Virus record (IMG/VR): IMGVR_UViG_3300047175_000033
Span: 1-62,905 of that record
Length of the DNA stretch: 62,905 bases
Strand: one strand, 5' to 3'
Source: a virus
Shown here: in pieces, positions 4,470-60,542 of the stretch
How positions within the stretch are numbered: position 1 is the stretch's first letter
Layout: each line of letters starts with the position of its first letter
Translations under genes and position numbers: made by a program
Notes under the pieces: generated by a model
Seen by the model: the letters and a program-made list of their open reading frames with translations, nothing else
What the model was told of the DNA's origin: nothing
The model's database searches: none

Positions 4470-4715
4470 TTACGGGAGCACGAAGTCGGGGTACAGGCGT
4501 TCGAACCGCTCAGTGCGCCTGTACAGCTTCGCGCGCATATCGTAAGCCATGTTATCGGGCGCAAGCTCGCCGTAGAGTCTCAGGTCGAGCGACGCCTGCG
4601 GGATCGATATGCCATAGAAGTCCGACAGCACGCCGCGCCGGATCGTGCCGTAATGGGCGAGCAGCAGGTCAATGAAGCGCACACGCTGCTCAACCGCGTA
4701 GTTGAGGCCGTTCAT
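4470..4715 (-). CDS. Orphan winged-helix protein of BrxR/CapW (WYL regulator) type
   Basis: An 81-residue protein with RVRFIDLLLAHYG, then DFYGISIPQASLDLRLYGELAP followed by DNMAYD. This is the signature of the N-terminal winged helix of BrxR/CapW regulators, which normally continues into WYL and WCX sensor domains. Here the protein ends right after the wing, so only the DNA-binding part is present. It is the last gene of the minus-strand regulator operon and its start overlaps the upstream stop (ATGA). It may act as a dominant repressor on host or phage operators. Family placement comes from motif reading only. Confidence 0.75.
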   Translation of the reverse strand: MNGLNYAVEQRVRFIDLLLAHYGTIRRGVLSDFYGISIPQASLDLRLYGELAPDNMAYDMRAKLYRRTERFERLYPDFVLP

Positions 4716-5038
4716 GGGGCCTTGATCAAGAAGTCATCCGCGTTCTTGCCCTTCATCCAGTTGGGCATGCCGCCCTGTCCGGTCCACGTGGCGCCGCTCA
4801 CAGGGTCCCGGTACTTCGGGGGCCTGGGGTTGCTGCTGCGGGTGCGTGGCGGCCGTACGCGGGCCGGAGCGTGGGGGAGCAATGCCTTCAGGTCGTCCAC
4901 AGTGATGGTGCCACTGGCCAGCATGTTCTTGATGGCTTCAAGCGTGCCATCCTTCACACGCTGCCGCTCGGCGATGACCTTGGCCTGGAGCTGCTCCAGC
5001 TGCTGCTCCAGCTCGGTGAGATTCGATTCGACTAGCAT
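4712..5038 (-). CDS. H-NS-like nucleoid protein, copy 2
   Basis: A 108-residue protein. An N-terminal coiled coil (residues about 5-40) should mediate dimerisation. The C-terminal PPKYRDPVSGATWTGQGGMPNWMKG segment is the H-NS DNA-binding loop as written in Burkholderia BpH3-type proteins. A Pro/Arg linker joins the two. It is likely to bind AT-rich DNA and either silence phage genes or counter host H-NS. It is a diverged paralogue of the gene at 5306 and its start overlaps the upstream stop (TGATG). Confidence 0.9.
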   Translation of the reverse strand: MLVESNLTELEQQLEQLQAKVIAERQRVKDGTLEAIKNMLASGTITVDDLKALLPHAPARVRPPRTRSSNPRPPKYRDPVSGATWTGQGGMPNWMKGKNADDFLIKAP

Positions 5039-5325
5039 CAGTGCTTCACCTGTTGGTTATTCATCAGGAGCCACGCAGCGATGACGCGGCGCACCTCGGG
5101 CGACTCCCGCATCTCGCTCACCTCGACCTCGGTGGGCAGGCGCAGACAGCGCTCGTGCATGTCGAAGATGCCCGCGCCACCACAGTCTATGCAGACCGCA
5201 ATGTCGCCGTCTTCCGGGGCGTTGTCGCCGCCCGTGTTCGTGTGGTGGGTGTTCAGCTTGCCACAGTACGGGCAGGTCAGCGTCAGCGGGTGGTCGACCC
5301 GCCGGTTACTTGATGAGGTACTCAT
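5038..5325 (-). CDS. Small Cys4 zinc-ribbon-like protein
   Basis: A 95-residue protein started at the ATG inside the end of the H-NS gene (20-base overlap). A 12-residue longer form is possible but has no better ribosome site. A CPYCGK pair and a CIDCGG pair, about 28 residues apart, form a probable zinc ribbon. The C-terminal half is helical, with an EVSEMRESPEVRRVIAAW stretch. It sits between two H-NS paralogues and may modulate nucleic-acid binding. No specific family is recognised. Confidence 0.7.
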   Translation of the reverse strand: MSTSSSNRRVDHPLTLTCPYCGKLNTHHTNTGGDNAPEDGDIAVCIDCGGAGIFDMHERCLRLPTEVEVSEMRESPEVRRVIAAWLLMNNQQVKH

Positions 5326-5662
5326 CGCGATCGGCCACGTCCCTGATCCACGCCGGGGCACGGGCCACGCCGCTCCACGTCTCGCCGGTCTCGGGGTTGC
5401 GGTACTTCGGCGGCTGGGGGCCGCGCCTGCGCCCGGTGACCTTCACCTTGGCCTTGGAGGGCTTCGCGCTCTTCGGCTTGGCCTTGGTGACCGCCTCGAC
5501 CGTGCGGGGCGTCCTGGCCGGGTGTGCGCCGTTCAGGTCGGCCGTGGTGAGCCCATGCTCATCCATCAGCGCGTGGACCTGCTTCAGCGCCGCATCCTTG
5601 ATCATGCTGGAGAGGGCGTCGCGTTTGGCTATCAGCTTTTCCAGATTGACTCGATTTGACAT
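5306..5662 (-). CDS. H-NS-like nucleoid protein, copy 1
   Basis: A 118-residue protein with an N-terminal helical oligomerisation region and a Lys/Ala/Pro-rich linker (residues about 55-85). The C-terminal motif PPKYRNPETGETWSG plus APAWI is close to the consensus of proteobacterial H-NS/BpH3 DNA-binding domains. It begins the three-gene H-NS operon downstream of the replication initiator. Plasmids and phages often carry such proteins to lower the fitness cost of new AT-rich DNA. Confidence 0.92.
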   Translation of the reverse strand: MSNRVNLEKLIAKRDALSSMIKDAALKQVHALMDEHGLTTADLNGAHPARTPRTVEAVTKAKPKSAKPSKAKVKVTGRRRGPQPPKYRNPETGETWSGVARAPAWIRDVADRDEYLIK

Positions 5663-5754: not shown

Positions 5755-6558
5755 TTATGCGGCGCGCTTCACAGCGACCAGATATGAGGGTCGTGGGCCG
5801 ACTTCATAGCTGTCGATAAATCGCTCGTCGGCCAGTTCACCGAGCGCCTTGGCCAGCTTCTGACGGAACCCACGCGCGCTGGTGTGCTTCGAGCCGCACA
5901 GCTCGTAGATCGTCGCGGCCTTGTATGGCAACGGTTCTGCGTGTGTCGCATAGAACGCATGGAGCCACTGGGCCAACCCTGAGAGGCGCCGCTGCCGCAC
6001 CCAATCAATCAACGTCAGATCGTTACCGGTCAGGATGCTGGCGAGCGAGTGATCGAGAAAGATGATCCACCGGGTGCCGCTCGTGACTGCCTCGCCAGCG
6101 ATCGTGTTGATCAAGTGAGCACCATAAAGCCGCCAACGCTTAGGCTTGCGGTCCTCCACGTACACCGTGCCCTCCAGCATGCGCTTGTAGCTGTTGCGCA
6201 GACGATCGTAGGACTCCTGCGAATCAGACCAGCCCAGCCCGCGTAGTGCCTCGGACGCGTCGACCTGCACGGCTTCGCCGAACGGTGTCGTGCGAGCGAT
6301 GTGGACAAGCTGCATGAACACGAGGTGGTCGTCCTGGTCAAGCTGCGTGCCGGTGTACTTCATCGTCACGTTGTTAAGCGATGCTATGACTTCTTCATCG
6401 TACCTGCGGCGCGGCGCGCGCTTCTCGCGCACCGAGAACAGCGCACTGTTTGCGAGGCATTTGGACAGGCCGCGCACGTCCGCGCCCCACAGGTCAAGCT
6501 GGCGGGGCAACGTGCTAAATTCTTCTTCGAGCCGCTGAGCGGTTGCCAACGCGTTCAC
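5755..6558 (-). CDS. trfA-like: TrfA-like plasmid replication initiator
   Basis: A 267-residue protein resembling TrfA of IncP plasmids, which binds iterons and loads the host helicase with DnaA. Diagnostic stretches are ALFSVREKRAPRR, the YTGTQLDQDDHLVFMQLVHIAR block, WRLYGAHLI, and the C-terminal VRQRRLSGLAQWLHAFYATH. Six iterons and a DnaA box lie directly upstream, completing a plasmid origin. I use the GTG at 6558, preceded by AGGGAAAGGG. A TTG at 6588 opens the frame earlier but would lie upstream of the expected transcript start. Iteron binding probably also represses its own promoter. Confidence 0.9.
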   Translation of the reverse strand: MNALATAQRLEEEFSTLPRQLDLWGADVRGLSKCLANSALFSVREKRAPRRRYDEEVIASLNNVTMKYTGTQLDQDDHLVFMQLVHIARTTPFGEAVQVDASEALRGLGWSDSQESYDRLRNSYKRMLEGTVYVEDRKPKRWRLYGAHLINTIAGEAVTSGTRWIIFLDHSLASILTGNDLTLIDWVRQRRLSGLAQWLHAFYATHAEPLPYKAATIYELCGSKHTSARGFRQKLAKALGELADERFIDSYEVGPRPSYLVAVKRAA

Positions 6559-6590
6559 GCCCTTTCCCTGAATTAAGTGCCAATGCAACT

Positions 6591-6620
6591 ATCGTAGCAA
6601 AAGATGTTACTGAATGACAA
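6591..6620 (-). promoter_or_regulatory. Putative sigma70 promoter of the rep gene
   Basis: On the minus strand TTGTCA (6615-6620) and TACGAT (6591-6596) are spaced by 18 bases. Transcription would start near 6584, upstream of the GTG at 6558. The DnaA box and the first iteron lie just behind the -35, so initiator binding could shut the promoter off. Confidence 0.55.
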
Positions 6621-6625
6621 ACGAG

Positions 6626-6634
6626 TTATCCACA
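6626..6634 (+). promoter_or_regulatory. DnaA box in the plasmid-type origin
   Basis: TTATCCACA is an exact match to the strongest DnaA box. It lies 17 bases before the first iteron, as in other iteron plasmids that need host DnaA for opening. Confidence 0.8.
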
Positions 6635-6651
6635 GGCACCCACTCGGGGCT

Positions 6652-6787
6652 CCGGTGTTTGGGATACGCTCTCCGGTGTTTGGGATACGTTCTCCGGTGT
6701 TTGGGATACATATGATCTGTCCCCCTCCGGTGTTTGGGATACGCTTTTCCGGTGTTTGGGATACGCTTTTCCGGTGTTTGGGATACG
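6652..6787 (+). repeat. Iteron array: six copies of a 17-bp repeat
   Basis: CCGGTGTTTGGGATACG occurs at 6652, 6673, 6694 (last base A), 6727, 6749 and 6771, all in the same orientation. Start-to-start distances are 21, 21, 33, 22 and 22 bases, that is two or three helical turns. The initiator would therefore sit on one face of the DNA. The array lies between the rep promoter and an AT-rich stretch at about 6800-6890, and is the probable vegetative origin of the episomal form. Confidence 0.93.
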
Positions 6788-6965
6788 CCACCCTCCCGAA
6801 ACAAACTTTAAAATCAAGCACTTAGCACGGTTACTAACAGGCAATAAGCCTTTTATAAGCCTTTCTTTATTAAAACCGTCGCCGGGTAGTTGTAAACCCT
6901 GGGGTCAAAAAACCAGTTTTGCAAGGGGGTGGTTTACCCGCGCCCTGCCCTTCTCAATTCCCCTG

Positions 6966-7094
6966 TAGAATCCCGGCCGTGCGGCGCCCCCTCGGAACCC
7001 GCATCGCCCCGCGTGGCGGCCCGATGGTCTCTCAGCACGCGGCGGCGTCTTGCATGGCCCCTACCCGGCTCACCCGCCCGTAGGGGCTTTTTTT
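6966..7094 (+). ncRNA. Possible small RNA ending in a strong terminator
   Basis: No open frame of note lies on the plus strand from 4466 to 7291, yet a strong intrinsic terminator ends at 7094. A -10-like TAGAAT at 6966-6971 lies about 90 bases before its stem, with no convincing -35. A transcript of about 115 bases, GC-rich and able to fold, would fit. It might be a copy-number or incompatibility RNA, or may simply insulate parA from the origin. This is inference from the terminator. Confidence 0.35.
7057..7094 (+). terminator. Intrinsic terminator upstream of the parA promoter
   Basis: An 8-bp perfect stem (7057-7064 with 7080-7087), a 15-base loop and seven T residues (7088-7094). It is one of the best terminators in the window and has no coding gene before it on this strand. 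Confidence 0.85.
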
Positions 7095-7138
7095 ATGTAT
7101 CACCGTAATGACAGACATATATACGCCCGCCTATAAGG

Positions 7139-7179
7139 TTGACAATACGGTTGTCAATACATAGTTACAGGCGTATAGA
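7139..7179 (+). promoter_or_regulatory. Operator-like palindrome within a parA promoter
   Basis: TTGACAATACGGTTGTCAA (7139-7157) is a perfect 7-bp inverted repeat around five bases. Its right arm is also a -35 (TTGTCA, 7151-7156) spaced 17 bases from TATAGA (7174-7179). A dimeric repressor bound here would occlude the polymerase. The ribbon-helix-helix partner of ParA is the obvious candidate. Confidence 0.6.
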
Positions 7180-7227
7180 CATACATACCTACAGAGGTAT
7201 GACTGGTGTGGTTTATATGTTCGGTTA

Positions 7228-7257
7228 CTAACAGATGTAGTTATGCTGATGTATAAT
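7228..7257 (+). promoter_or_regulatory. Second parA promoter with perfect -10
   Basis: A consensus TATAAT (7252-7257) is preceded at 18 bases by CTAACA (7228-7233). Transcription would begin near 7264, 27 bases before the parA start and its GGAGGT ribosome site. Confidence 0.5.
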
Positions 7258-7290
7258 GATGGCCAGACATTCAACCAGACGGAGGTGTGT

Positions 7291-7947
7291 ATGTCGGTCA
7301 TCGCAGTCGTAAATCCCAAGGGTGGCGTGGGCAAGACCGCGCTCGCCACCAATCTGGCGTCAGCCTTCAGCCAGGAGGGCAGCACCAAGCTGGTCGACGC
7401 CGATCCCTCACAGCACTCGGCTGACGACTGGCTCCAGTGGCGGGACGACGCCGGGCACACCGGCATTGGGCGCGCGATCCTGCGCGGCAAGATATACCCG
7501 GCCCTCAACGCCGAGCGTGACAAGTGGGACACCGTTGTGGTGGACTGCCCCGGCAGCGACTCCGACGAGACGCGCGGCGCCATGGGCGCGGCCGACCTCA
7601 TTGTGATGCCCATCAACATCGGGCAGTCCGAGATCAAGGCCCTCCACCAGATGGCCAAGCTGATCAAGGAAATGCGATCGATGGGGCTGGAGACCGCGAT
7701 TCTCGCCGTCCTGAACAACGTGGACGTGGCGTGTACGCGGGAGTGCGCCGAGGCCCGCGAGATGCTGAGCGCCACGCCCGATCTGTTCCGCCTCCATGAC
7801 ACCGTGCTGTGGCGGCGCCAAGCCTTTCGTATGGCTTTCCGCGACGGGCTGGGCGTCCATGAGCTGCCGGTTGGCACGCACGACGGAAAGGCCACGGCCG
7901 AATTCAGAACCCTGTTCAAAGAGGTGCAACGTGAACTCGCCGCGTAG
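7291..7947 (+). CDS. parA: ParA-family partition ATPase
   Basis: A 218-residue Walker-type ATPase of the short ParF/type Ib size class. It starts MSVIAVVNPKGGVGKT, with the deviant Walker A lysine pair, then has a DADPSQ motif and a VVVDCPG Walker B region. Lacking an N-terminal HTH, it would not bind its operator itself. It probably segregates the episomal phage genome over the nucleoid with its ribbon-helix-helix partner encoded next. The start at 7291 follows GGAGGT; an in-frame ATG at 7243 lies before the likely transcript start. Confidence 0.92.
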   Translation: MSVIAVVNPKGGVGKTALATNLASAFSQEGSTKLVDADPSQHSADDWLQWRDDAGHTGIGRAILRGKIYPALNAERDKWDTVVVDCPGSDSDETRGAMGAADLIVMPINIGQSEIKALHQMAKLIKEMRSMGLETAILAVLNNVDVACTRECAEAREMLSATPDLFRLHDTVLWRRQAFRMAFRDGLGVHELPVGTHDGKATAEFRTLFKEVQRELAA

Positions 7948-8284
7948 ACCCGCACTCAAGTCGTTTCTCGACGGCGCCCCGGTGGCCACGGTCGAAGCCA
8001 CGCCGGAGCCCAAGGCTGTGAAGCCGAAGCGCGTCCCGAAGCCAAAAGTGGCCAAGCCAACGCCGATCGCCAAGGCCCCGGAGCAGGCCGAGCTGACGCT
8101 CACCGACGTGGAGATCGAGCCGACCAAGCTGGTCAGCCTTAAAATACCACTCAGGATGTTTGAGGACATCGATACGCTGCGGCGGAACTCCCGTATCACG
8201 TTGACCGATATCTTTGTCAAGTCGGCTGCGCCGCAGGTGGCGCGGCTCATGGTTGAGCTAGGCAAACGACAGGGGCACAAGTGA
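7931..8284 (+). CDS. ParA partner with ribbon-helix-helix domain (ParG/omega-like)
   Basis: A 117-residue protein that starts with GTG inside the end of parA, with GAGGTG as ribosome site. Residues 1-60 are a Lys/Pro/Ala-rich disordered tail. Residues about 66-110 (VSLKIPLRMFEDIDTLRRN then LTDIFVKSA) look like a ribbon-helix-helix fold. A flexible basic N-terminus plus C-terminal RHH is the layout of ParG-type centromere-binding proteins, whose tail stimulates ParA. It may also repress the operon at the palindrome at 7139. Confidence 0.8.
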   Translation: MNSPRRPALKSFLDGAPVATVEATPEPKAVKPKRVPKPKVAKPTPIAKAPEQAELTLTDVEIEPTKLVSLKIPLRMFEDIDTLRRNSRITLTDIFVKSAAPQVARLMVELGKRQGHK

Positions 8285-8541
8285 TGGAAGAGTTCAACGA
8301 AGACCGCGCACGCGCGGCGACGATCGAGAGCCTGCGCCACGCCGGCCAGACGCTGCTGGTCAATGAGGTGATGTGCCGTGATCTGGTAATCACCCTGATG
8401 GGTGCGCCCGACGAGAAGTGGGCGCAGTGGTTTCTGGACCGTGTCCAGTTGCTGCTGGGTATGGTGGCCGGCAGGGTGGAGTCCGGGGTGGTCCTCGACG
8501 CGGCGAAGAAGCCCACCACGACCAGCACCGAGGTGCACTGA
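8284..8541 (+). CDS. Hypothetical protein in the partition operon
   Basis: An 85-residue acidic, helical protein. Its ATG overlaps the stop of the RHH gene and its own stop overlaps the next start, so it is translationally coupled to partition. No family is recognised. A Thr/Lys-rich tail follows a helical body with LVNEVMCRDLVITLM. Confidence 0.7.
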   Translation: MEEFNEDRARAATIESLRHAGQTLLVNEVMCRDLVITLMGAPDEKWAQWFLDRVQLLLGMVAGRVESGVVLDAAKKPTTTSTEVH

Positions 8542-8825
8542 TGGACATGCGACGTGTCTGCGCGGACAACGACTATACCGACTATCGGGCGTTCCCGAAC
8601 GGCCGGGACGCGTGCCTGACCCAGCTGATGTTCACCTGCGCCATCATCGCCGATATCGAGTATTGGGGGTATGGCGACCGCTGGTGTTACGAGACATACG
8701 CCAAGGCCAAGGCCGCGCTCGACGCGTGGGATGGAGAGGGTGAGCCCGCCGGCTGGCACCGGCACCCCGACACGGGCCGGCGGCGCGAGGGTGGCGACCC
8801 GGCGAAAGAAGAGGTGTACTTCTGA
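8541..8825 (+). CDS. Hypothetical protein
   Basis: A 94-residue protein with an aromatic centre (IEYWGYGDRWCYETYAKAKAAL) and a charged Gly/Arg tail. Both ends overlap neighbouring genes by one to four bases. Similar short YGDRWCYET proteins occur in other phages without known function. An in-frame extension upstream to 8418 is a shadow of the previous gene. Confidence 0.7.
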   Translation: MDMRRVCADNDYTDYRAFPNGRDACLTQLMFTCAIIADIEYWGYGDRWCYETYAKAKAALDAWDGEGEPAGWHRHPDTGRRREGGDPAKEEVYF

Positions 8826-9241
8826 TGAGCGCGTTACTGGTTATTGGCACCGAGCAGCGCGAGGCGCTGGCACTGCTGCGCGGCCGGGCGAGCGAGAACC
8901 CGGTCGACATCGTAGCGCTGCTGCAGAACATCAGGACGCCCGAGGGCAAGAAACGCCACAAGGCGCAGATGAATACGCAGAGCCTGTTCCTGCCCACGGA
9001 CTTTCTGGTGACCTTCAGCATCGAGACGGGCCACGGGGCGGGCACCTGCCGCCACATGAGCATGAGCGTGGGACGCCCCGATCGCGTACCCCACCCGGCA
9101 GCGGTGTGGATGGTGGCCGAGGAACTGGGCTTCGTTGGCGGCCTCGATCAGTGCATGCACTACATCGAGCAGCTGGAGGGCCACGGCGAGGCCGTCAACG
9201 TCATTCAGCCGGTTTCGGTGATGCCATGCGCAAACGCCTGA
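8825..9241 (+). CDS. Hypothetical protein
   Basis: A 138-residue protein coupled to the preceding gene by a TGATG overlap. The centre reads MNTQSLFLPTDFLVTFSIETGHGAGTCRHMSMSVGRPDRVPHP, and this looks like a conserved phage accessory protein of unknown role. The C-terminal third is helical. Its last 16 bases overlap the membrane-protein gene that follows. Confidence 0.7.
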   Translation: MSALLVIGTEQREALALLRGRASENPVDIVALLQNIRTPEGKKRHKAQMNTQSLFLPTDFLVTFSIETGHGAGTCRHMSMSVGRPDRVPHPAAVWMVAEELGFVGGLDQCMHYIEQLEGHGEAVNVIQPVSVMPCANA

Positions 9242-16678: not shown

Positions 16679-19600
16679 TTACTGCCCCGATGGCATCGCC
16701 GCGTAACCGACCTTGGCCTGCGCCGCCGGCAGCTCGCGACGTGTGAGCGGCATACCGAAGCCGGACTGCGCGCCGATCGCGTACTCCTGCACGTGTTGCC
16801 GGATGGCGTCGGCCGCGCCACGGATCGGCTGATACGGGTTCGCGGCGTTGAACTTCATCATGGCGTCCATCGCATCCTTCTGCAGCCCGGTGTCGCCCGT
16901 CTGCATGGCCTTGACCATCTGATCGTCAATCACGCTGCGGCGGTGCTGCAGCAGCTGCTGGCTTAGGCTCTGGCTATAGGCGCCTTCATCGCGCGTCGCC
17001 TTGTCGGCCGTGCGGAAGCCTGCAGCCTGCAGGGCGGTGTCCCACGTGCCCGCTGCGAACGTGCCATCCGCCTGCTGCTCCCCGAACGGCAGCTTGTTGC
17101 CCTTGCTGTCGGTATAGCCGCCCGCGCCGATCGCGCCACCCAGCTCGGCCGCCTTGTAGTACGGCTTGAGGCCGCTCGGCAGCATCTGCTCGATCCCCTT
17201 GACGTAATAGCCATCCGAGATTTTGCTCATGCCCAGCGCGAGGTCGACACCGGCATTGATCGCCGGACCCATGAGCTGCTGCGACTGGCTCTCGATGCGA
17301 TCGGACAGCATGCGGCGATCGACCAGAAACTCGGAGCCCGGCAGCAGGTTCTCAAGCCCGAAAGTCGACGTGTCCATGTTGACCAGATGCCCGAGGCCAT
17401 GCGCGATGATGTCGCCGCCCTGCTGCCCGAACGTGCTGTTCAGGAAGTTGCGCACGCTGTCGCGCACGTCGGTCGGATCGTCCTGATCCTTGGCCAGCGT
17501 GTTGTACGCACCAAACGCCGCGTTGGCGAACGGCAGGCCCATCACGCCCGAGATCATCGCGGTGGTGGCCATCAGGCCAAGGAATTCCTTCTTGGCCTCA
17601 GACGAACGCTGGGCGCCGGCCGCGCTCCTGTCCTGCGAAAAGAAGCCGTCCTGCACCGTGCGCACGATCTGCTGCATGGTCTGTAACTGATAGTTCATGA
17701 ACGCCGTCAAGAGCGGCGTGACCTTGCCCGCGAACCCCTGCTTGCCGATCTGGCGGGCAGTGTTGTCCGGGTCAAAGTTGTCCATCGCGTTGTTGACGTT
17801 CTTGATCGCCCACTCGGTCGCAGCCTGCGGCGTCATGCGCTTGTCACCGGCCGCCGTCGCAAGCCGGAACGATGCGAGGCCCATCGTGAACCGGTTGGTC
17901 ATCTCGGCATACTGCGCCGTCATGGAAGCAAGCCGCGCCACGTCCTGTGAGCGCTGGCTCGACCCACTGATCGCGTGCTGCAGCTGCTGCGCCTGACCCA
18001 GCTTCAGGATGCCCCGGTCATGCAGCTCCTGCACGAATGCCTCTTCGGCGGCCGACAGCCCGAGGCCCCGGAAGCTCATGCCGGTATCGAGCACGCCACG
18101 CATGCCGCCCTGCGCGTAACCGGCGCGGATCGTGTTGGCGATCACCTTCATGGCCACACCCGTCGCCCCCGCGATTTCCTTGGAGCCACGCACCGCGCCG
18201 TACTTCGCGGCGAGGATCGGCAGACCACGGTGCCACGGCTGCGCCATCGTGCGGATATAGAAGGCCGGGGAGGCGGCCAGATAGAACGTGTGCCCCAGCG
18301 AGTTGAGCAGATTGATGTTCGTGTTGTCGATCCGCTTCATGCCGTTGGCGTAGCGCTGGTTGATCTCGTTGGCAACCATCTGCGCGCGGGCCGCGTTGTC
18401 ACCCGTGCCCGTACGGTTCAGGGCCGTGATCGAATCCGACATGGCCTTGACCGACGCCCCGAAGTGCTGGTTCGTGTAGCTGTTGGCCATGTCCTGCACG
18501 TTGCCCGAGGCGCGGCGCGCGAAGTTGCCCACAAAGTCGGCATCGTAGCCCGGCACGCCCCGGCGCTGCATCTTCGCGCTGCGCGCGCTCGTCTCCGGCA
18601 GCATGGACATCAGCTGGCGCGTAAGCGTCTGTTTCATCTCCAGCGCCTGCTCGGCGTTCAGACCCATGCCCTCGACCATGTCGTGCAGCGACTCGTTGAG
18701 CTGCCGCAAGGCCGGTGTGATACCCGCGACGTTCTGCATGTCCATGTTGGCCAGCAGGCCGCGCGCCGAGCCCGGCACGTCGATCGAATCGCCGCCGGCT
18801 GCGATCAGCTTGTTGAGCAGGCCCTGCGCCTGATCGAGCGTATCGACACGGAAAAACGCGTGTGTCTGGCTGTTCAGGTCACCCAGCACCTTGTTGGTTC
18901 CGGTGAGCGCGGCCTGCAGCTTCGCCTGCGTCTGCGCGGGTACGCCCGGCTTGAATGCGACGTTCACAAAATAATCGCCGTCGCGCCCGAGGCTGAAGTA
19001 CGGGTGCTGCACCTGCGCGGTGTACAGACGCTCCAGCTCGGCCATCTGGGTACGCAACTGGGAATTGGCCGGCAGGTCGCGCGCATCCTTGAACATCGCA
19101 TCGAGCCGTGCCCCCAGCGCCGAGCTGGCACCGTCCAGATGGAAGTCCGGGTGGCCGTTGCGGGCACCCTTAAGGTCCGGGTTCATGAGGTCGAGCCGGG
19201 CAATGTGCTGGGCCGCGAGCTGGCTCTCCATGCGGGCACCCGTAATGCGGTCCTCCATGCGCGCACGGTTCGCATCACCCGGTTCCATGCGCGCGAGTTC
19301 GGCTTCGAGGCGCGGGGTCGCACCGATCGCGGCGCGCAGCTTGTTGGCGGCAATCGTCGCCGTCGTCTGGATGAGCGATTTGCGGTTGTGCTGCTCGCCC
19401 TCGCGCACCAGCGCCTTCAGGTTCTCCGGCAGCTGGGTGTACATCCGGTGGATGTTGTCCACGTGCGTCTTCAGGCTGTCATCGAGCGACGCGTTATCGG
19501 CCTTGTTGCGCGCGAAATTCTTGGTGTAGTCAAACCCATGAATGCTCGCCTCGCCGCCAATGGTCATCATCTTTTCGCCATAACCACGCGGGTCTTTCGT

Positions 19601-22600
19601 TGCGCGCAGCGCTTCCTGCGAACGCTTCACGTAGTCGCCCAGGCGGTCGCTGATGTGCTCGGACACGACGCGGCGCAGATCGCGCGCGGCACGGTACGCA
19701 TCTACTGCCTTGACGAATCCCGACTGCACCAGCTCCGGCACCCCGCTGATCTGGTGAGCGATGAAGTCAACCGTTTTCCAGCCGAGCATGTGCTGGAATA
19801 CCGGCCGGCTGATCCGGTCGAGCGGCACCTTGTCGCCCAGCTTGTCGGCCACCCTGGCGAAGCTGTGCAGGACCTTGTCGGTTGCGCCGGCCGCGCCCTG
19901 CGGCGACTTCTCGAAGTCGGCTTCGTTCTTTGCCGCTTCGAGCATCACATTGGACGCGTCCATGGCCTTCGCGAGCGCGGTGCGGTCGTCCGTCTTCAGG
20001 CCGAGCATCCGGCGCGCGGCGTCCACCACGCGTGACCACAGCGACTTGCCGGTGCCCTGCGACTGAAGGAAGCGCTGGAATTGCGGGTTCGACCGCAGCT
20101 CGGCGGCGAATTCCTGCGCGTTGGTCAGCCCGTAATGATCATCCGGCGAGGCCACCTTGAGCGCATCGGTGCGCACCTTCTCCATGTCGTCAAACGCGCG
20201 CTTGAGCTGGGCCTCAGCCTGCGTGCGCGGTGTGCCGATCGTCTGCGCGCGCTCGATCGTGTGAAACAGCGCGGCGTGCGTTGCCTCGTGCAGGATCGTC
20301 CCCTCCGACTCGCCGCCGGGATGGATGTTGATGCGGTCAGCATCGGGGTAGTAGGCGCCGGCCGCTTTCGGGTCGAACCCGTCGCGGTGGATGCTGGTCT
20401 TCAGGCCCAGCTCGCCCAGGCGCTGCGCGAGGTCGCGCACCCACGGCTGCGAGCCGTTCGTGGCCAGATGCGTAAGCATGTCCGACAGCTTGTGCGAGAC
20501 GATCGCCGGAGCCAGAAGCCCCGGATCAACCACGTCCGGGTTGGCCATCTTCAGCGGCTGTTCGAGGCGCTTGGTGTACGGCTTCCCGGTCGCATTCGCG
20601 CGGTCGAGCGTGGCCTGCACGGTCGCCTCGTCATGCTGGCCCGCGTCGGCGTTGATCGCCTTCAGGTTCTCGTAGGCTTCCTTGGCATCGGTGAAGCGCT
20701 GCTGCTCAAGATCAGACAGCTGCTCTTTCTTGAACATGCGGTCACGAAAGCCCGCGATGGTCTTCTGCACGTTACGTATTGCGGCCGGGACCTGATCGCG
20801 CACGGTGGGCTCAAAACCGCCCGGCATCGTGGCTGCGATCTTCGCCGTCTTCGGACCCGGTTCGGCGGGGCCAAGCGGGTCCTTGGGCGGGATGTTCTCC
20901 CCAAGCGCGGCTTTCGCGGCGGCCGGCTGCTCGCCCGCGATGCGCGTCGGCGTCTTCTCTGCAGGCTCGGCAGCAGGCGACGGCGCGGCAGTTTCCGCTG
21001 CGGGCTTCTCGGCCTCCCACTTGTCAGCCAGCTTGTTCATGAGCGTCTGCACGTCGACCGACATGTTGCCCTTGGCCGCATCGCGCACCGCATCGATCTG
21101 GTCCTGATGCGTGGCCATGCCGTCGAGCTTCAGCTTGCCCACGCGCGCATCAAACGAGCGCATCGCGGCGCCGCTCACGCCGTCCGCTTCCTGCTTGACG
21201 GTATCCGCGTCGCGCGTCAGCTCTTCGGTCTGCTTCGGCGCGTTGGCGTCCGGCTGCACGGAGCTGGACCGCGTGCCTTCTTCGTCCTCCACGCGGTCGG
21301 CCAGCTGCTCACCCTTCGCGCGCGTGGCGATCAGGTTCGACTCGTGTTCACGCTGCGCGTCGTAGGCGCTGTACGCGTCGTCGATCTGCTTCTGGCGCAG
21401 GGCCTGCTGCATCGAGTCGGCCAGCTGCGTGTTGGTACGATCCTCGGGCGCCTTCTCATCCACCAACGGGTTGAGGGATGGTTCGGGCGCAGCCTCGCGC
21501 CCGGCAACCATTTTCTCGTAGCTGTCGGCATCCTCGCGCATCAGCGCTTCCTGCGTGTCAGGCGAGGCGAGATACGCCTTGTACGCCTTCGCGAGGTCCT
21601 GCCCCTTCAGGTCCTTGGCCGCGTCCGTCTGCGCGAACGTGGCGCGGTCCATCGGCGCCGCTGTGGGGATACCTGCGTCGCTCAGCACGCTCTTGACCTG
21701 ATCGTGCAGATCGCTGAGCGCCTGTGTGTGATCGGCGGCCTGTGCGTCGGTCGCAGCCGGCGGCGTGTCCAGCCCGATCATTTTCGCCCACGCGGCGGGG
21801 CGCTCCGCTTCCGGCAGACCGCTGATGAAGGCGTTCGCATGCCCGATGTCGTTGGACGACGAGCCATCAGGGAACGTGAACGAACGCACGCCCGGCGGCA
21901 AGACCGTGCCATCCGGCATCACCGGGATCGGCGTCTGTCCCATCGGCAGCTGCGGGTACTGGGTGTGCGTGAGCAGCGGCGTGCCCTGATCCACAGATGC
22001 GCCCGGCGCGGCGGCTTCAGCCGGTGCGGCCGGCGTCTCGGCGACCGGATTGCCCAGTAGCTGCTGCCATGCGGCGGCGCGCTGTTCAACCGGCAGGCCG
22101 TTGATATACGCCTGCGCCTGCCCGATGTCGCTGGACGAGGACTGGTCAGGAAAGTTGAACACGTGGCCAATCGGGGCGTGGTACAGATTGCCCTCGGTGT
22201 CGCCGATCACGTTGCCGCCAATCCCCGGCAGCTGTCCGGGCGCTGGCTCTGCGGGCGCAGCAGCGGCCGGCCCGTAAAACGACTCAGGCGCACGCGGCCC
22301 CTGCTGCGGCGTCGGCTGGACCACTCCCGGCTGAAACAGCGTCGGGTCGACCGGCAGGCCCTGATTGTCCGTGATCGCCGTGTCAGCATTCGCGCGGAAT
22401 GCCGCCGCCTTGGCCGGGTCGACCTTGGCCAGCGCCGCCGCGTACTGGTCGGCGAGCTGGTTACGGATCGCGGGCGACGTGTCGGGGCTGGCCAGCGTCT
22501 GCGCGCTGCGCGCGGCGGCACGCACACTGAGCGCGCGGGACACGAGCCCGAGCGGCGTAGTGACAGCGGTTAGCCCCAGCATCGGGACGATCGAGTCTTT

Positions 22601-23446
22601 CATGGCCTCCAGCGGACTCGTGTCGTCGATTCCGTAGGAGTTCTCAATTTTCGCCTGCATGCCCGCCTGCGCGGCGCCGACTCCGACCGCTTCAGCGGCC
22701 GAGAGAGGCAGCTGCTTCAGGAACGGCGCGACCACGCCACCCTGGCCGGTCATCTGGCTGAGCACGTCTGCGGCGGCGTCTGCGCCTTCGGTGCCGACCA
22801 TTTTGCCTACTGCGCTACCGACCTTGCCGAGCATCTGGCCACCAACGAGACCGAGGCCCGTCATGGTGGCGAACGTACCCGCTGCACTGAGGTTCGCGGC
22901 GGTGCGTGCGTCTTCAGGATTGACGCCCTTGGCCTGTGCTTTCTCCAGCGTCTGCTGGCCCGCCTGGGCGCCGAAAAGCGCGCCACTACCAACCGCACCC
23001 GCGCCGGCAATGGCGGCGGCCGGGATGTCGACTGGAGCAGCGAAAGCGGCAGCGCCCAGCGCGAGCGGCACGGCAGCGATCGGCGCGATCTGTTCGGCGC
23101 CTGACGCGAGCGCATTGGTCAACCCGTTGTGAGCTGCCGGATTGAGCGTAAGGCCCGGTCGCTGCGCCATGCCCTGACCGAAGTTCGTCAGCGACTGCCC
23201 GATCTGCTGCGCGCCCACGAACTGCAGCGCCTGACCGCCGAGCTGCGGCAGGTCAGCGAGCGCACCGCGCGCCAGACCCGTACCGATTTCACCGAGCGCA
23301 CCACGCTGCGGCAGCGGCGCTGCGGGAGCGGCCGGCTGCGGTGCCGCGATCGGCGCAAAGGGATCGACAATCTGCGGCATCGCGCCGGCCGGTGCCGGAG
23401 CTGCTGGTTGCCCCTGTGCGGGCTGAAACGGATCGACAATCGCCAT
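16679..23446 (-). CDS. Giant internal virion protein, polyvalent type with metallopeptidase domain
   Basis: A 2,255-residue protein, over a tenth of the genome. Residues about 115-215 are Ala/Gly-rich and hydrophobic, suited to membrane insertion. A DIG/INGLP repeat occurs twice (about 430-465 and 521-556). A zinc-metallopeptidase motif, LHEATHA, lies at about 1053. A hydrophobic FYLAASPAFYIRTMAQPW block lies near 1730. The C-terminal 260 residues resemble large polyvalent protein domain LPD38. Such proteins are ejected into the cell with phage DNA. Probable roles are DNA entry and early counter-defence. Confidence 0.85.
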   Translation of the reverse strand: MAIVDPFQPAQGQPAAPAPAGAMPQIVDPFAPIAAPQPAAPAAPLPQRGALGEIGTGLARGALADLPQLGGQALQFVGAQQIGQSLTNFGQGMAQRPGLTLNPAAHNGLTNALASGAEQIAPIAAVPLALGAAAFAAPVDIPAAAIAGAGAVGSGALFGAQAGQQTLEKAQAKGVNPEDARTAANLSAAGTFATMTGLGLVGGQMLGKVGSAVGKMVGTEGADAAADVLSQMTGQGGVVAPFLKQLPLSAAEAVGVGAAQAGMQAKIENSYGIDDTSPLEAMKDSIVPMLGLTAVTTPLGLVSRALSVRAAARSAQTLASPDTSPAIRNQLADQYAAALAKVDPAKAAAFRANADTAITDNQGLPVDPTLFQPGVVQPTPQQGPRAPESFYGPAAAAPAEPAPGQLPGIGGNVIGDTEGNLYHAPIGHVFNFPDQSSSSDIGQAQAYINGLPVEQRAAAWQQLLGNPVAETPAAPAEAAAPGASVDQGTPLLTHTQYPQLPMGQTPIPVMPDGTVLPPGVRSFTFPDGSSSNDIGHANAFISGLPEAERPAAWAKMIGLDTPPAATDAQAADHTQALSDLHDQVKSVLSDAGIPTAAPMDRATFAQTDAAKDLKGQDLAKAYKAYLASPDTQEALMREDADSYEKMVAGREAAPEPSLNPLVDEKAPEDRTNTQLADSMQQALRQKQIDDAYSAYDAQREHESNLIATRAKGEQLADRVEDEEGTRSSSVQPDANAPKQTEELTRDADTVKQEADGVSGAAMRSFDARVGKLKLDGMATHQDQIDAVRDAAKGNMSVDVQTLMNKLADKWEAEKPAAETAAPSPAAEPAEKTPTRIAGEQPAAAKAALGENIPPKDPLGPAEPGPKTAKIAATMPGGFEPTVRDQVPAAIRNVQKTIAGFRDRMFKKEQLSDLEQQRFTDAKEAYENLKAINADAGQHDEATVQATLDRANATGKPYTKRLEQPLKMANPDVVDPGLLAPAIVSHKLSDMLTHLATNGSQPWVRDLAQRLGELGLKTSIHRDGFDPKAAGAYYPDADRINIHPGGESEGTILHEATHAALFHTIERAQTIGTPRTQAEAQLKRAFDDMEKVRTDALKVASPDDHYGLTNAQEFAAELRSNPQFQRFLQSQGTGKSLWSRVVDAARRMLGLKTDDRTALAKAMDASNVMLEAAKNEADFEKSPQGAAGATDKVLHSFARVADKLGDKVPLDRISRPVFQHMLGWKTVDFIAHQISGVPELVQSGFVKAVDAYRAARDLRRVVSEHISDRLGDYVKRSQEALRATKDPRGYGEKMMTIGGEASIHGFDYTKNFARNKADNASLDDSLKTHVDNIHRMYTQLPENLKALVREGEQHNRKSLIQTTATIAANKLRAAIGATPRLEAELARMEPGDANRARMEDRITGARMESQLAAQHIARLDLMNPDLKGARNGHPDFHLDGASSALGARLDAMFKDARDLPANSQLRTQMAELERLYTAQVQHPYFSLGRDGDYFVNVAFKPGVPAQTQAKLQAALTGTNKVLGDLNSQTHAFFRVDTLDQAQGLLNKLIAAGGDSIDVPGSARGLLANMDMQNVAGITPALRQLNESLHDMVEGMGLNAEQALEMKQTLTRQLMSMLPETSARSAKMQRRGVPGYDADFVGNFARRASGNVQDMANSYTNQHFGASVKAMSDSITALNRTGTGDNAARAQMVANEINQRYANGMKRIDNTNINLLNSLGHTFYLAASPAFYIRTMAQPWHRGLPILAAKYGAVRGSKEIAGATGVAMKVIANTIRAGYAQGGMRGVLDTGMSFRGLGLSAAEEAFVQELHDRGILKLGQAQQLQHAISGSSQRSQDVARLASMTAQYAEMTNRFTMGLASFRLATAAGDKRMTPQAATEWAIKNVNNAMDNFDPDNTARQIGKQGFAGKVTPLLTAFMNYQLQTMQQIVRTVQDGFFSQDRSAAGAQRSSEAKKEFLGLMATTAMISGVMGLPFANAAFGAYNTLAKDQDDPTDVRDSVRNFLNSTFGQQGGDIIAHGLGHLVNMDTSTFGLENLLPGSEFLVDRRMLSDRIESQSQQLMGPAINAGVDLALGMSKISDGYYVKGIEQMLPSGLKPYYKAAELGGAIGAGGYTDSKGNKLPFGEQQADGTFAAGTWDTALQAAGFRTADKATRDEGAYSQSLSQQLLQHRRSVIDDQMVKAMQTGDTGLQKDAMDAMMKFNAANPYQPIRGAADAIRQHVQEYAIGAQSGFGMPLTRRELPAAQAKVGYAAMPSGQ

Positions 23447-40602: not shown

Positions 40603-40971
40603 ATGCTTCGGAATCCTGACTATTAGACGGGAGGATATACCAACAACTGGCCGTCAGGTAAACGGGATCGGCGCAACTAAGGGATTTTTTGCGGAAAATT
40701 TCATAGCGACATGTAACTAAGAGGTTTCGCAGCAAATCTTATGTATGCGTGCATGGACGCCGGACGCCCAATCCCTCCTTCGATCCCCCTTGGCCGCCCC
40801 CGCTGCCAGAAAAAGAATTACTCCCCAGGACATTCCGGTATGAATGCCGTTTTGTCCGTGAATCGCTTGCTGGGCGTGGCTTTGCGGCTATTGCGCTCAT
40901 TCGTCGACACGTGCATGCTTAGGACTCCAGTAGCAATTTCGTTACTGGCAACTAGTCGGGAGATAGTCACC
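40603..40971. promoter_or_regulatory. Divergent early/late promoter region
   Basis: This 369-base gap separates the two divergent halves of the genome. On the minus strand TTTACC (40657-40662) and TATATC (40634-40639), 17 bases apart, would drive the late operon. On the plus strand TTGCGG (40689-40694) and TGTAAC (40712-40717), also 17 apart, are a weaker candidate. It also holds the first, imperfect GGACATTCCGG hairpin (40828-40857). Confidence 0.5.
40828..40857 (+). repeat. Dispersed intergenic hairpin, copy 1 (imperfect)
   Basis: GGACATTCCGG on the left is matched by CCGTTTTGTCC on the right, so GGACA/TGTCC and CGG/CCG pair but the middle does not. It is the leftmost member of the family and the most decayed. 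Confidence 0.55.
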
Positions 40972-46004: not shown

Positions 46005-47357
46005 ATGGCGCACGCTTATCAGCTCGGTCGAGCCCGAGCTAATGGCTCAGAGACAACCCGCATATTCTGGGATGAGTCCGAGAAAAGAAAGGTAGCAATG
46101 CAGTCGTACCACCTGATTAAAGCTGATCCCTCCATCTCCCATCTCGATGCTGTCATGGCAGCGCAGCGCAAGGTACTCAAGCCTGATCGCGTGCGGACAG
46201 TCTCAACATTCGGCAAGTTCGCTCCGTGGATAAAACCCATGTGGGATGCAATAGAAGCCGAGAAGAAAACACAGGCGGTGGCAGCGCAAGGCGCGGCTGA
46301 TCTGTTCAAGCCCGAGACCATAGAACAAGTCCCTCCCAAAGAATTCATGCAAGCCGAAGTCGTGGCCGACGAGCCCGCATCGCCCGAACTCCCTCCCGCC
46401 CTCCCTGAAAATCAGACCGTAGTGTTTGCGGACGATGGACGTGTGTTTCAAAAAGCCGATGGCGTGAATATCGATACGCCTGCGCAGACCGAGTCCGGCC
46501 GCAAGCCCACAGTCCACTGGCGTGATGATGAGAAGCGCAAGCTGGCCGCGCGTGTCCACTACCTGCTGAAGTCGTTCACCGACATGCGCCCGCTGGAAGC
46601 GCTGCGCAAGGCCAACGACTCGGAGCTGCCCGGTGACCGCCAGCGCGATATCAGCACGTGGGCGATGGTCGAGGTATGGCTTGACCCAATGCTCCAGCAG
46701 CTGAAGATCGACGAACAGCTCGCCGAGCTGCAGGCCAAGGAGGCACGCGAGACAGCCGAGCGTGAGGCACGTGAGGCGCGCGAACGCGCCGAGGCCGAAG
46801 AGGCCCGCATTGCCGCCATTGTCGAAGAGCGTGTTGAGATGCAGGTCGCCGCACGCATGGCTGAGCAAAGACCGGTAGGGTTGGAGGCCATCATCCAGCT
46901 GTTTGCACTGCGCTTTGCTGAGACACTGGTGCCCGCCATGAGTCACGCTGTCATGCAGGCCGCTTCACTCCAGATTGCCAATATCAATTTCGGTCAGCCG
47001 GCGAAAGAAGAAGCCAGGCTGGTAACACCTCCCAAAGATCGCCTGCCTAAATTGTGCATCGTGGGTCTGCTCAACCAGCAGGCCGAGGATGTACAGAAGG
47101 CATTCCTTGGCACGGTTGAATTTGTATTCGTCAAGTCGCAGGCCGAGGGCGGCGGTGGCCATGGTGGCGCAGGCATGCTCACCAAGTCGGCCAGCTGTGA
47201 CCTCGTAATTGCCATGGTCGATCACATGGGCAAGGATGTCGACGCGAGCGCCAAGCATCTGAAAATTCCCTACCACCGAGTTAATGGCAGCGCATCGGCG
47301 TGCAAGCGTTTCATTACGTCGTGGCTCAATGGAAGTTATTCGGGAGTGGCGGGATAA
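46005..47357 (+). CDS. Duplicated-domain protein with coiled coil and DUF2325-like end
   Basis: A 450-residue protein behind a GAAGAGGA site. Two related helical units, FWDESEKRKVAMQSYHLIKA (from about residue 20) and HWRDDEKRKLAARVHYLLKS (from about 170), each run about 60 residues and end in a WIKPMWDAI/WLDPMLQQL motif. A charged coiled coil (about 240-290) links to a C-terminal Rossmann-like part (about 350-445: KLCIVGLLNQQAEDVQKAF, CDLVIAMVDHMGKDVDASAKHL) that resembles DUF2325. It may be an oligomeric DNA-binding regulator or conflict protein. Family placement is by eye. Confidence 0.75.
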   Translation: MAHAYQLGRARANGSETTRIFWDESEKRKVAMQSYHLIKADPSISHLDAVMAAQRKVLKPDRVRTVSTFGKFAPWIKPMWDAIEAEKKTQAVAAQGAADLFKPETIEQVPPKEFMQAEVVADEPASPELPPALPENQTVVFADDGRVFQKADGVNIDTPAQTESGRKPTVHWRDDEKRKLAARVHYLLKSFTDMRPLEALRKANDSELPGDRQRDISTWAMVEVWLDPMLQQLKIDEQLAELQAKEARETAEREAREARERAEAEEARIAAIVEERVEMQVAARMAEQRPVGLEAIIQLFALRFAETLVPAMSHAVMQAASLQIANINFGQPAKEEARLVTPPKDRLPKLCIVGLLNQQAEDVQKAFLGTVEFVFVKSQAEGGGGHGGAGMLTKSASCDLVIAMVDHMGKDVDASAKHLKIPYHRVNGSASACKRFITSWLNGSYSGVAG

Positions 47358-58662: not shown

Positions 58663-58950
58663 GTGACAGAAGAAGGAAAAGTTAAGGCCAAGGTCAAGCG
58701 CCTCTTCAAGAAGTACGAGGTGTATTGGCACATGCCGGTGCAGAACGGGATGGGTGAGCCCACGCTTGATTTCGTGGCTTGCCTGCGCGGATTTTTCATA
58801 TCAGTCGAGACCAAGGCGGCGGGCAAGAAACCTACGGCGCGGCAACAGATCACCATGGCGGCGATGCGTGCGGCTGGCGCGTTTGTCTTCGTGGTCTCCA
58901 ACGACGCCGAGCTGCTCGTGCTTGAGTGCTACCTGCAACTTCTATCATGA
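58663..58950 (+). CDS. VRR-NUC domain nuclease
   Basis: A 95-residue stand-alone VRR-NUC. Conserved blocks are MPVQNGMGEPTLDFVACLRGFFISVETKAAGKKPTARQ, with E-x-K in VETKA. Such enzymes resolve or nick branched DNA during phage recombination. It starts with GTG and has a poor ribosome site. It is coupled to the helicase gene by ATGA. Confidence 0.87.
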   Translation: MTEEGKVKAKVKRLFKKYEVYWHMPVQNGMGEPTLDFVACLRGFFISVETKAAGKKPTARQQITMAAMRAAGAFVFVVSNDAELLVLECYLQLLS

Positions 58951-60542
58951 TCGTCCATACTCCGAGCAAGAGCCTGCTGCTGAAAGTGCGGCCCAAAGCG
59001 CTCGCCGCGCTGCGGGATATTTTTCCGTCGCACAGCCGGCTGATGGATTACGAGGGGCATAACCTCGCGCTGCCGCTTAATCTCGCGGTGGTCAAGGTGC
59101 TGCGCAACATGGGCATCAAGGCGCCAAGCCCGGTTCGCTTCTTCTATGACTTCCCACGGCCGGCGCGTTTTGAAACGATCTTCGACCACCAGTATTCGAC
59201 AGTCGACTTTCTCACGCTGCACCCGCGCTGCTTCGTACTGAACGAGCAGGGCACCAGCAAGACGGCAAGCGCCCTGTGGGCCGCTGACTACCTGATGCGT
59301 CTGGGCAAGATCAAGCGTGTGCTGATCTGCGCCAAGCTGTCGACGCTTGAGCAGGTGTGGCTCAACGAAATTTTCGACGTGTGCATGCACCGCACCGCCC
59401 TTGTGCTGCATGACAACGCCGACAAGCGCCGCGCGCTGCTGGCCCAGCCGGTTGACTTCTACATCATCAATCATGATGGCCTGAAGATTCTCGAAGGCGA
59501 CCTGATCGCCCGCAAGGATATCGATCTGGTGATCGTGGATGAGGCGAGCGCATTCCGCAACGGCCAGACAGCGCTGTACCGCTCGCTGGAGAAGGTGATC
59601 AAGGGCCGCAAGGTGTGGCTACTCACGGGCACGCCTTGCCCGAACGCGCCGACCGACGCATGGGCACTCGCGCGGCTGATCGATCGCACCCGCGTGCCGG
59701 ACTACTTCGCCCAGTTCAAGCGTGCCACCATGAATCAGGTGTCAACGCATCGGTGGGTGCCGAAGCCAGGCAGTCATGAGATGGCTTTCGCGGCGATGCA
59801 GCCGGCGATCCGCTTCAAGAAGTCGGACTGCCTGACGCTGCCGCCGGTCACGTACAGCAACCGTCAGTGCGAGCTGAGTGACGAACAGAAAGTGGCCTAC
59901 GGCCAGATGAAAAACCATCTGGTGGCCACCGCCAATGCGACGCAGATCAGCGCGGTGAACGCGGCCGACAAGATCAGCAAGCTGCGCCAGATTCTGATCG
60001 GTGCCATCAAGGACCCGGTCACGGGCGCGTACGTGGTGCTCGACCACAAGCCGCGCCTGAAGGTGTTGCTTGAGACGATCGAAGAGGCGAGCGCCAAGGT
60101 GCTGATCATCGTGCCATTCAAGGGCATCGTGCCGGTGCTGCAGGCTGAGATCAACGCGTGGCACGACAAGCGCAAGGATGGGCGGCGCGCGGCAGTGGTC
60201 AATGGCGACGTGTCGCAGACCAGGCGCAACCAGATTTTCCAGGACTTCCGTGACGACCAGAGTCTCACCGAGATGATCTGCCACCCGAAGGTCATGGCCC
60301 ACGGCCTGAACCTGACGCAGGCTGACCTCATGATTTTCTATGCGCCGATCAACAGCAACGAGGAAAGCATGCAGGTGATGGACCGGATCAATCGCCCAGG
60401 ACAAACCCGCAAGATGACCATCGTGCGCATGTTCGCGAACCAGCTGGAAAAAGAGATTTATGCCGTGGTAGAAGGGCGCGCACTGAATCAGGAGTCGATC
60501 CTGTCGCTGTACAAGAAGGCTCTCGCCGTTTTTGACTATTGA
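58947..60542 (+). CDS. SNF2-type helicase
   Basis: A 531-residue superfamily 2 ATPase. Motif I is EQGTSKTAS (about 98), motif II VDEASAF (about 198), motif III LLTGTPCPNAP (about 228) and motif VI DRINRPGQTRK (about 478-488), the R-x-x-R-x-G-Q pattern of SNF2 family enzymes. It likely remodels or translocates DNA during recombination-dependent replication together with the two nucleases before it. The ATG at 58947 overlaps the upstream stop; a start seven codons earlier is possible. Confidence 0.9.
   Translation: MIVHTPSKSLLLKVRPKALAALRDIFPSHSRLMDYEGHNLALPLNLAVVKVLRNMGIKAPSPVRFFYDFPRPARFETIFDHQYSTVDFLTLHPRCFVLNEQGTSKTASALWAADYLMRLGKIKRVLICAKLSTLEQVWLNEIFDVCMHRTALVLHDNADKRRALLAQPVDFYIINHDGLKILEGDLIARKDIDLVIVDEASAFRNGQTALYRSLEKVIKGRKVWLLTGTPCPNAPTDAWALARLIDRTRVPDYFAQFKRATMNQVSTHRWVPKPGSHEMAFAAMQPAIRFKKSDCLTLPPVTYSNRQCELSDEQKVAYGQMKNHLVATANATQISAVNAADKISKLRQILIGAIKDPVTGAYVVLDHKPRLKVLLETIEEASAKVLIIVPFKGIVPVLQAEINAWHDKRKDGRRAAVVNGDVSQTRRNQIFQDFRDDQSLTEMICHPKVMAHGLNLTQADLMIFYAPINSNEESMQVMDRINRPGQTRKMTIVRMFANQLEKEIYAVVEGRALNQESILSLYKKALAVFDY

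Follow-up and report, generated by a model that had tools for sequence, protein, structure and literature searches.

A TrfA/iteron replicon and a ParF-type partition cassette in the genome of a probable podovirus point to a temperate phage-plasmid with an exchangeable persistence slot

The stretch of DNA analysed here (the window) is the whole of IMG/VR virus record IMGVR_UViG_3300047175_000033, 62,905 bases in length. Its positions 5755 to 8284 hold a gene for a replication initiator of the TrfA family, a putative iteron-type origin and, on the opposite strand, the genes for a ParA ATPase and a ParG-like partner protein. From trfA to the partner gene the features are:

5755-6558, minus strand: TrfA-family replication initiator (PF07042), delimited by alignment with relatives; the open reading frame reaches TTG 6588
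6591-6620, minus strand: promoter-like site for trfA, TTGTCA-18-TACGAT with extended TG, a consensus match only
6626-6634, plus strand: DnaA box TTATCCACA, without another exact match in the window; the iterons lie next to them
6651-6786, no strand assigned: six iterons, identical direct repeats with the 17-nt core TCCGGTGTTTGGGATAC (GTATCCCAAACACCGGA in trfA sense)
6795-6880, no strand assigned: AT-rich stretch adjoining the iterons, GC content 0.45-0.47 as against 0.63 for the genome; by inference a probable unwinding element
7095-7255, no strand assigned: putative centromere (parS) with TACATAC-type motifs and 12-bp periodicity, upstream of parA
7228-7257, plus strand: promoter-like site for the par operon, CTAACA-18-TATAAT, matching 10/12 consensus positions
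7291-7947, plus strand: ParA ATPase of the ParF/MipZ type, 218 amino acids; the open reading frame opens at 7243 and ATG 7291 is the likely start
7931-8284, plus strand: ParG-like partner, 117 amino acids, overlapping parA, with a basic disordered N-terminus and a C-terminus resembling ribbon-helix-helix (RHH) proteins

The product of the trfA gene matches the TrfA profile PF07042 with E=1.4e-25 and 90.4 bits (cut-off 22) over profile positions 39-271 of 282, so that the initiator, called TrfA-like in an initial annotation of the window, is borne out by the very profile search that this annotation had proposed. It matches 601 plasmid records in PLSDB, the best being trfA of the Burkholderia glumae conjugative plasmid p947s3p (50% identity), and searches with three different queries, tblastn included, found no matching record among the 50,697 phage genomes of a named-phage collection. 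Its matches are thus not confined to proteins of lytic phages, a possibility which had been raised at the outset. Proteins related to it have been seen earlier in phages, as PHROG 26900 (function unknown), and a sequence search against solved structures gave no match. The initial assignment of TrfA to IncP-type plasmids holds as far as the family link goes and is too narrow beyond it, as TrfA-family initiators are present on many non-IncP plasmids. No conjugation genes turned up among the Pfam-scanned genes of the window. As to the start of translation, the relatives, the ribosome-binding sequence and the promoter-like site suggest that GTG 6558 is likelier than TTG 6588.

The DNA ahead of trfA has the features of an iteron-type origin, that is, direct repeats spaced by about two turns of the helix and lying next to the gene for the initiator, a DnaA box and AT-rich DNA, and all three elements named in the initial annotation are present. 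The iterons are spaced at 21, 21, 33, 22 and 22 bp; in 500 dinucleotide shuffles of this stretch no 12-mer occurred more than twice, whereas the real sequence contains one 17-mer six times. The DnaA box counts only through its position, because 0.58 exact matches would be expected by chance genome-wide. GC content drops to 0.45 at 6800-6949, alongside the iterons, and to 0.40 at 7100-7249, before parA. In a comparison of six TrfA loci (the window, four phage contigs and B. glumae) the iterons precede the gene in every case and are mostly 21-23 bp apart, and those of the closest loci are recognisably alike (GTATCCCAAACACCGGA in the window, GTATCTCAAACCCCGAA in B. glumae, and GTTTGTCAAACCCCGAA and GTTCCTCAATCCACGAA in the phage contigs L004 and L005). 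To judge from these sequences, the TrfA initiator and its iteron have evidently travelled together. TrfA with iterons is present in the phage contigs L212 (3300047323_000320), L192, L004 and L005, and since one of them (64.5 kb) has an unrelated terminase, the TrfA/iteron replicon has spread among different phage families.

Among plasmids the closest TrfA loci are those of B. glumae p947s3p and p79s4p (NZ_CP100190, NZ_CP100267), whose TrfA is 50% identical and which share the order ParA-ParG-iterons-trfA. They differ from the window in that no phage structural gene is found among the features listed around trfA and p947s3p is typed as conjugative; moreover, their ParG of 52 amino acids shows no detectable similarity, in a direct comparison, to the 117-residue partner of the window.

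ParA of the window is a small Walker ATPase of the ParF type, as in ParF-ParG (type Ib) systems. It matches phrog_164 (E=1.8e-39), and its nearest solved structure, found with a five-member family profile, is ParF (4dzz, E=3e-28), in agreement with the ParA named initially. For the partner an RHH protein had been claimed. A protein of 117 residues does follow ParA, but the family search proposed for it gave no match in Pfam, PHROG or NCBIfam. In a structure model built from a five-sequence alignment, the single-sequence model being too poor to use, the C-terminal half came out with fair confidence (predicted local distance difference test score about 80) as an extended stretch with two helices, and among known structures the model resembles RHH proteins most (ParD, PrpA, CdbA and Arc; Z about 5-6, up to 5.9). 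The partner is therefore a probable rather than a proved RHH protein. A partner of the same place and shape follows ParA in eight loci, the window and seven others, and this conserved place, together with a basic disordered N-terminus ahead of strand-helix-helix and the model itself, makes a ParG-like role likely. In the roughly 160 bases before parA, a region missed in the initial annotation, a lag of 12 bp is the best (p=0.002 in shuffles), and lag 12 is also found upstream of parA in two sister phages introduced below (G020, p=0.003; G006, p<0.001). We regard 7095-7255 as the putative centromere.

The window also encodes a terminase, a portal and a major capsid protein, and thus combines virion and packaging genes with plasmid replication and partition genes (TrfA, ParA), as phage-plasmids do. 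The last 127 bases of the contig are an exact repeat of bases 34-160, which closes it to a circular unit of about 62.7 kb, a feature missed in the initial annotation; closing overlaps of 126-127 bp are found alike in the window and in the sister phages G002, G006 and G020. Relatives of its terminase are found in short-tailed phages, among them BcepC6B and Cronobacter phage Ss1, the nearest being that of Pseudomonas phage Rollin (46%), and by these relatives the phage would be a podovirus. A near-identical phage for the first 25 kb of the window was not found in the named-phage collection. The full lytic replication set noted initially beside the module is confirmed for its two named members, a DUF927 primase-helicase and a family A polymerase, and further includes an SNF2 helicase, a PDDEXK nuclease, exonucleases and an AAA ATPase. 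In line with what had been noted, no integrase is present: neither PF00589 nor PF00239 has a match in the window, no tyrosine or serine integrase is found among the Pfam-scanned genes, and no resolvase, no toxin-antitoxin or other addiction module and no Cre-like recombinase was found in the window.

What lies at the same place in related phages? We compared sister phages, that is, phages with the same genome layout and a terminase 65-77% identical to that of the window, in the slot between the primase and the lysis genes. In the window this slot holds TrfA, ParA and the partner. In G020 it holds RepL (PF05732, E=1e-32) next to a ParA and a partner that share 53% and 40% identity, respectively, with those of the window, in G011 and L193 a helix-turn-helix (HTH)-type initiator with ParA and partner, and in G006 a 197-residue initiator candidate with ParA and partner. 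G002 has a tyrosine integrase there, and no integrase, initiator or par cassette was detected in the slot of G001, G003, G004, G005 and G021. Thus the initiator varies while ParA and its partner remain, an integrase is an alternative occupant, and the slot behaves as expected of one for host persistence or 'lifestyle'. A terminase tree splits up the phages with par genes, but with weak support at most of its forks it is still compatible with a single origin. A solitary iteron-like CAAACACCGGAG in G020 (position 1730) was considered as a relic of a TrfA origin and is not relied on, the 11-mer also occurring once in each of two other genomes. XRE-type regulators occur in the slot of G001 (59828-60043), G004 (58882-59142), G011 (606-896) and G020, and none was recognised in the window. 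Outside the slot, G006 encodes at 46287-46709 (locus L168) a small serine resolvase of 209 amino acids, possibly for plasmid multimer resolution; small serine resolvases are used for this by low-copy plasmids.

Taken together, the parts and their order, the plasmid ancestry of the initiator, a contig that closes and slot contents that are exchanged lead us to think it probable that the window phage is a temperate phage-plasmid, with an episomal, partitioned prophage and a persistence cassette that is exchanged by recombination at one slot. What we propose for origin and partition activity, copy number, and lysogeny and its control is predicted from sequence. Between infections the circular genome of about 62.7 kb would replicate as a low-copy plasmid, once or a few times per cell cycle. 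TrfA would bind the six iterons and host DnaA the adjoining box, upon which the neighbouring AT-rich DNA would open and the host replisome be loaded. The ParG-like protein would bind ahead of parA, at the region with the 12-bp period, and would share out the copies at division together with the ParA ATPase, so that an integrase would be unnecessary for persistence. The lytic genes would be kept silent by a repressor, possibly with help of H-NS-like proteins, and on induction the phage primase-helicase and polymerase A would take over for lytic replication. Over longer times the mode of persistence would change by recombination at the slot, between integrase and initiator-par cassettes. Opening of the origin by TrfA and DnaA and distribution by ParA and its partner can be expected because the families are known; the remaining steps are inference.

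Several observations weigh against this proposal. The main gap is the missing repressor: no CI-like repressor was recognised among the Pfam-scanned genes of the window, in which many proteins lack a known family. Collections of genomes and plasmids yielded no lysogen of the window phage or of any close relative. When 84,980 genomes of bacteria and archaea were scanned with the capsid protein, one match of 49% (a Desulfovibrio metagenome-assembled genome) and three remote ones were obtained, whereas more than 560 virus contigs carry the protein; so few cellular matches would fit a rarely integrated phage and equally a mostly virulent family. In addition, a circularly permuted linear virion genome would also explain the closure of the window contig, the fold match of the partner is weak, with modest Z scores, and several sister phages are without any such cassette, so that the virus can propagate without one. 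Then again, an integrated prophage with attachment sites, which the initial annotation had named as a finding that would refute its reading, was not seen in the capsid scan either. The episomal low-copy prophage proposed there thus gains support from the slot contents of the sister phages and from plasmid ancestry, but stable lysogeny was not seen and the lifestyle remains inferred.

The initial annotation had further suggested a search for lysogens carrying an extrachromosomal circle. None was found for the window phage itself, but a circular DNA of 60,552 bp deposited as an Escherichia coli plasmid, pSTEC648_2 (CP061838.1; loci L189 and L191), is a distant cousin. It has primase (DUF927), polymerase, SNF2 helicase, exoribonuclease and terminase in common with the window (25-36% identical) and its equivalent of the slot, with the primase on one side and the lysis genes on the other, holds persistence genes, the toxin-antitoxin pair HigBA; it differs in that no TrfA is listed and a ParB-like gene lies elsewhere. 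It also has a portal related to that of the window and looks like an unrecognised phage-plasmid. This is the sole example found as a free circle in a named bacterium, although a circle could also result from the assembly of phage DNA that was replicating in the culture, and megablast found no relatives of pSTEC648_2 in 5,426 E. coli genomes or among named phages.

Could the module serve the lytic cycle instead? In a virulent phage TrfA and the iterons might form an early lytic origin that feeds the phage polymerase, with ParA and its partner merely positioning the DNA. The module does adjoin the replication genes, and neither a repressor nor a lysogen was found. However, sister phages have the same primase, polymerase and helicase and yet do without TrfA or rely on unrelated initiators, so that lytic replication does not need TrfA and TrfA does not fit a role in it. 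Moreover, a partition pair suits a low-copy replicon and not a burst, and what stands in the slot in place of such a cassette is an integrase. We therefore consider a lytic origin unlikely.

A weapon or shield is less likely still. The excess iterons and the centromere would here displace or exclude plasmids of the same type and related phages, maintenance being secondary or lost. Iterons and centromeres are classic determinants of plasmid incompatibility, and the initiator types differ among the sister phages as if pressed to differ. Yet all genes are intact, the whole replicon is conserved and not the iterons alone, and the slot alternates with an integrase, all of which makes this explanation very improbable. 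That a plasmid module was joined to the phage as a chimera or assembly artefact, as might be suspected of a metagenomic contig of which no identical second copy was seen, is scarcely credible and was rejected, since the arrangement is common to relatives (related ParA and partner modules in the same slot of 4-5 independent contigs, with shared small neighbour genes) and the window contig closes cleanly.

The preferred reading of a temperate phage-plasmid has precedents. In phage-plasmids of the P1 type an iteron-type initiator and a partition system are part of the genome of a phage whose lytic replication is separate. The window shares this organisation with P1 and the classic phage-plasmids, but the phage type differs, the initiator family is unrelated, and neither an addiction module nor a Cre-like recombinase was detected in the window. 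Gene exchange with plasmids has been described for phage-plasmids, which form a recognised class (PMC10879196), and environmental phage-plasmid groups with par genes are reported from glaciers (PMC4490671). About 20% of cluster A mycobacteriophages have a partition cassette at the very locus of the integration cassette, which it replaces, and some of them carry a plasmid RepA as well (PMC7157519). These come closest, with parABS at the integrase locus of close relatives, sometimes with the plasmid RepA, and an extrachromosomal prophage. They differ in being actinobacterial, in using ParA/ParB, in having RepA and not TrfA, and in their origin, which is mostly RNA-based with no iterons identified (PMC7157519), whereas the window has TrfA and iterons of Gram-negative plasmids and a ParG-like partner, and its sister phages have at least three other initiator types. 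The nearest named phages, Pseudomonas phage Rollin and the Rhizobium phages RHph_TM (terminase 46% and 34%, primase 28% and 24% identical, respectively), have no TrfA detectable by tblastn. The RHph_TM primase-helicase (MN988472.1, 42239-45322, locus L080) is annotated as 'putative integrase protein', a label that is probably wrong because the protein aligns with the DUF927 primase of the window.

The swap of an integrase for a partition cassette is thus already known from cluster A mycobacteriophages. As far as our searches reach, three things are new: the lineage, the presence in a phage of a replicon with TrfA and iterons, and the way in which several initiators, unrelated to one another, replace each other next to par genes that are related; for podoviruses of Gram-negative bacteria we found no earlier description of such replicon swapping. 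The lineage offers a testable case of phages that change their persistence by swapping a whole plasmid replicon at one locus. Scans that equate a missing integrase with virulence would misjudge it, which bears on phage ecology and on the choice of therapeutic phages. In addition, the slot is a source of several compact phage-borne replicons and partition systems.

The module is flanked by the following genes:

4470-4715, minus strand: small protein that travels with the par modules of sister phages, 74% identical in G020 and 52% in L193, both with par
4712-5038, minus strand: H-NS-like protein, 108 amino acids (PF00816, E=1.9e-12)
5306-5662, minus strand: H-NS-like protein, 118 amino acids (PF00816, E=2.2e-8)
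8284-9241, plus strand: three small genes that follow the partner gene; their relatives flank other TrfA/par or integrase cassettes

The two H-NS-like genes beside trfA had been overlooked initially, and relatives of their products are encoded near TrfA in the phage contigs L192 and L212. They may silence phage genes or act as stealth proteins. A bolder version of our proposal would see a plug-in persistence slot, filled by an integrase or by TrfA, RepL, HTH-type or other replicons, throughout a large and almost undescribed podovirus family, in whose TrfA type H-NS-like proteins and not a CI-like repressor silence the lytic genes; as a whole we hold this to be rather unlikely. Elsewhere in the window, the intergenic region 40603-40971 separates divergent late (minus strand) and early (plus strand) genes and is a likely control region, with no recognised repressor adjoining. 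Finally, positions 16679-23446, among the structural genes, encode a protein of 2,255 residues that has matches in every sister phage compared.

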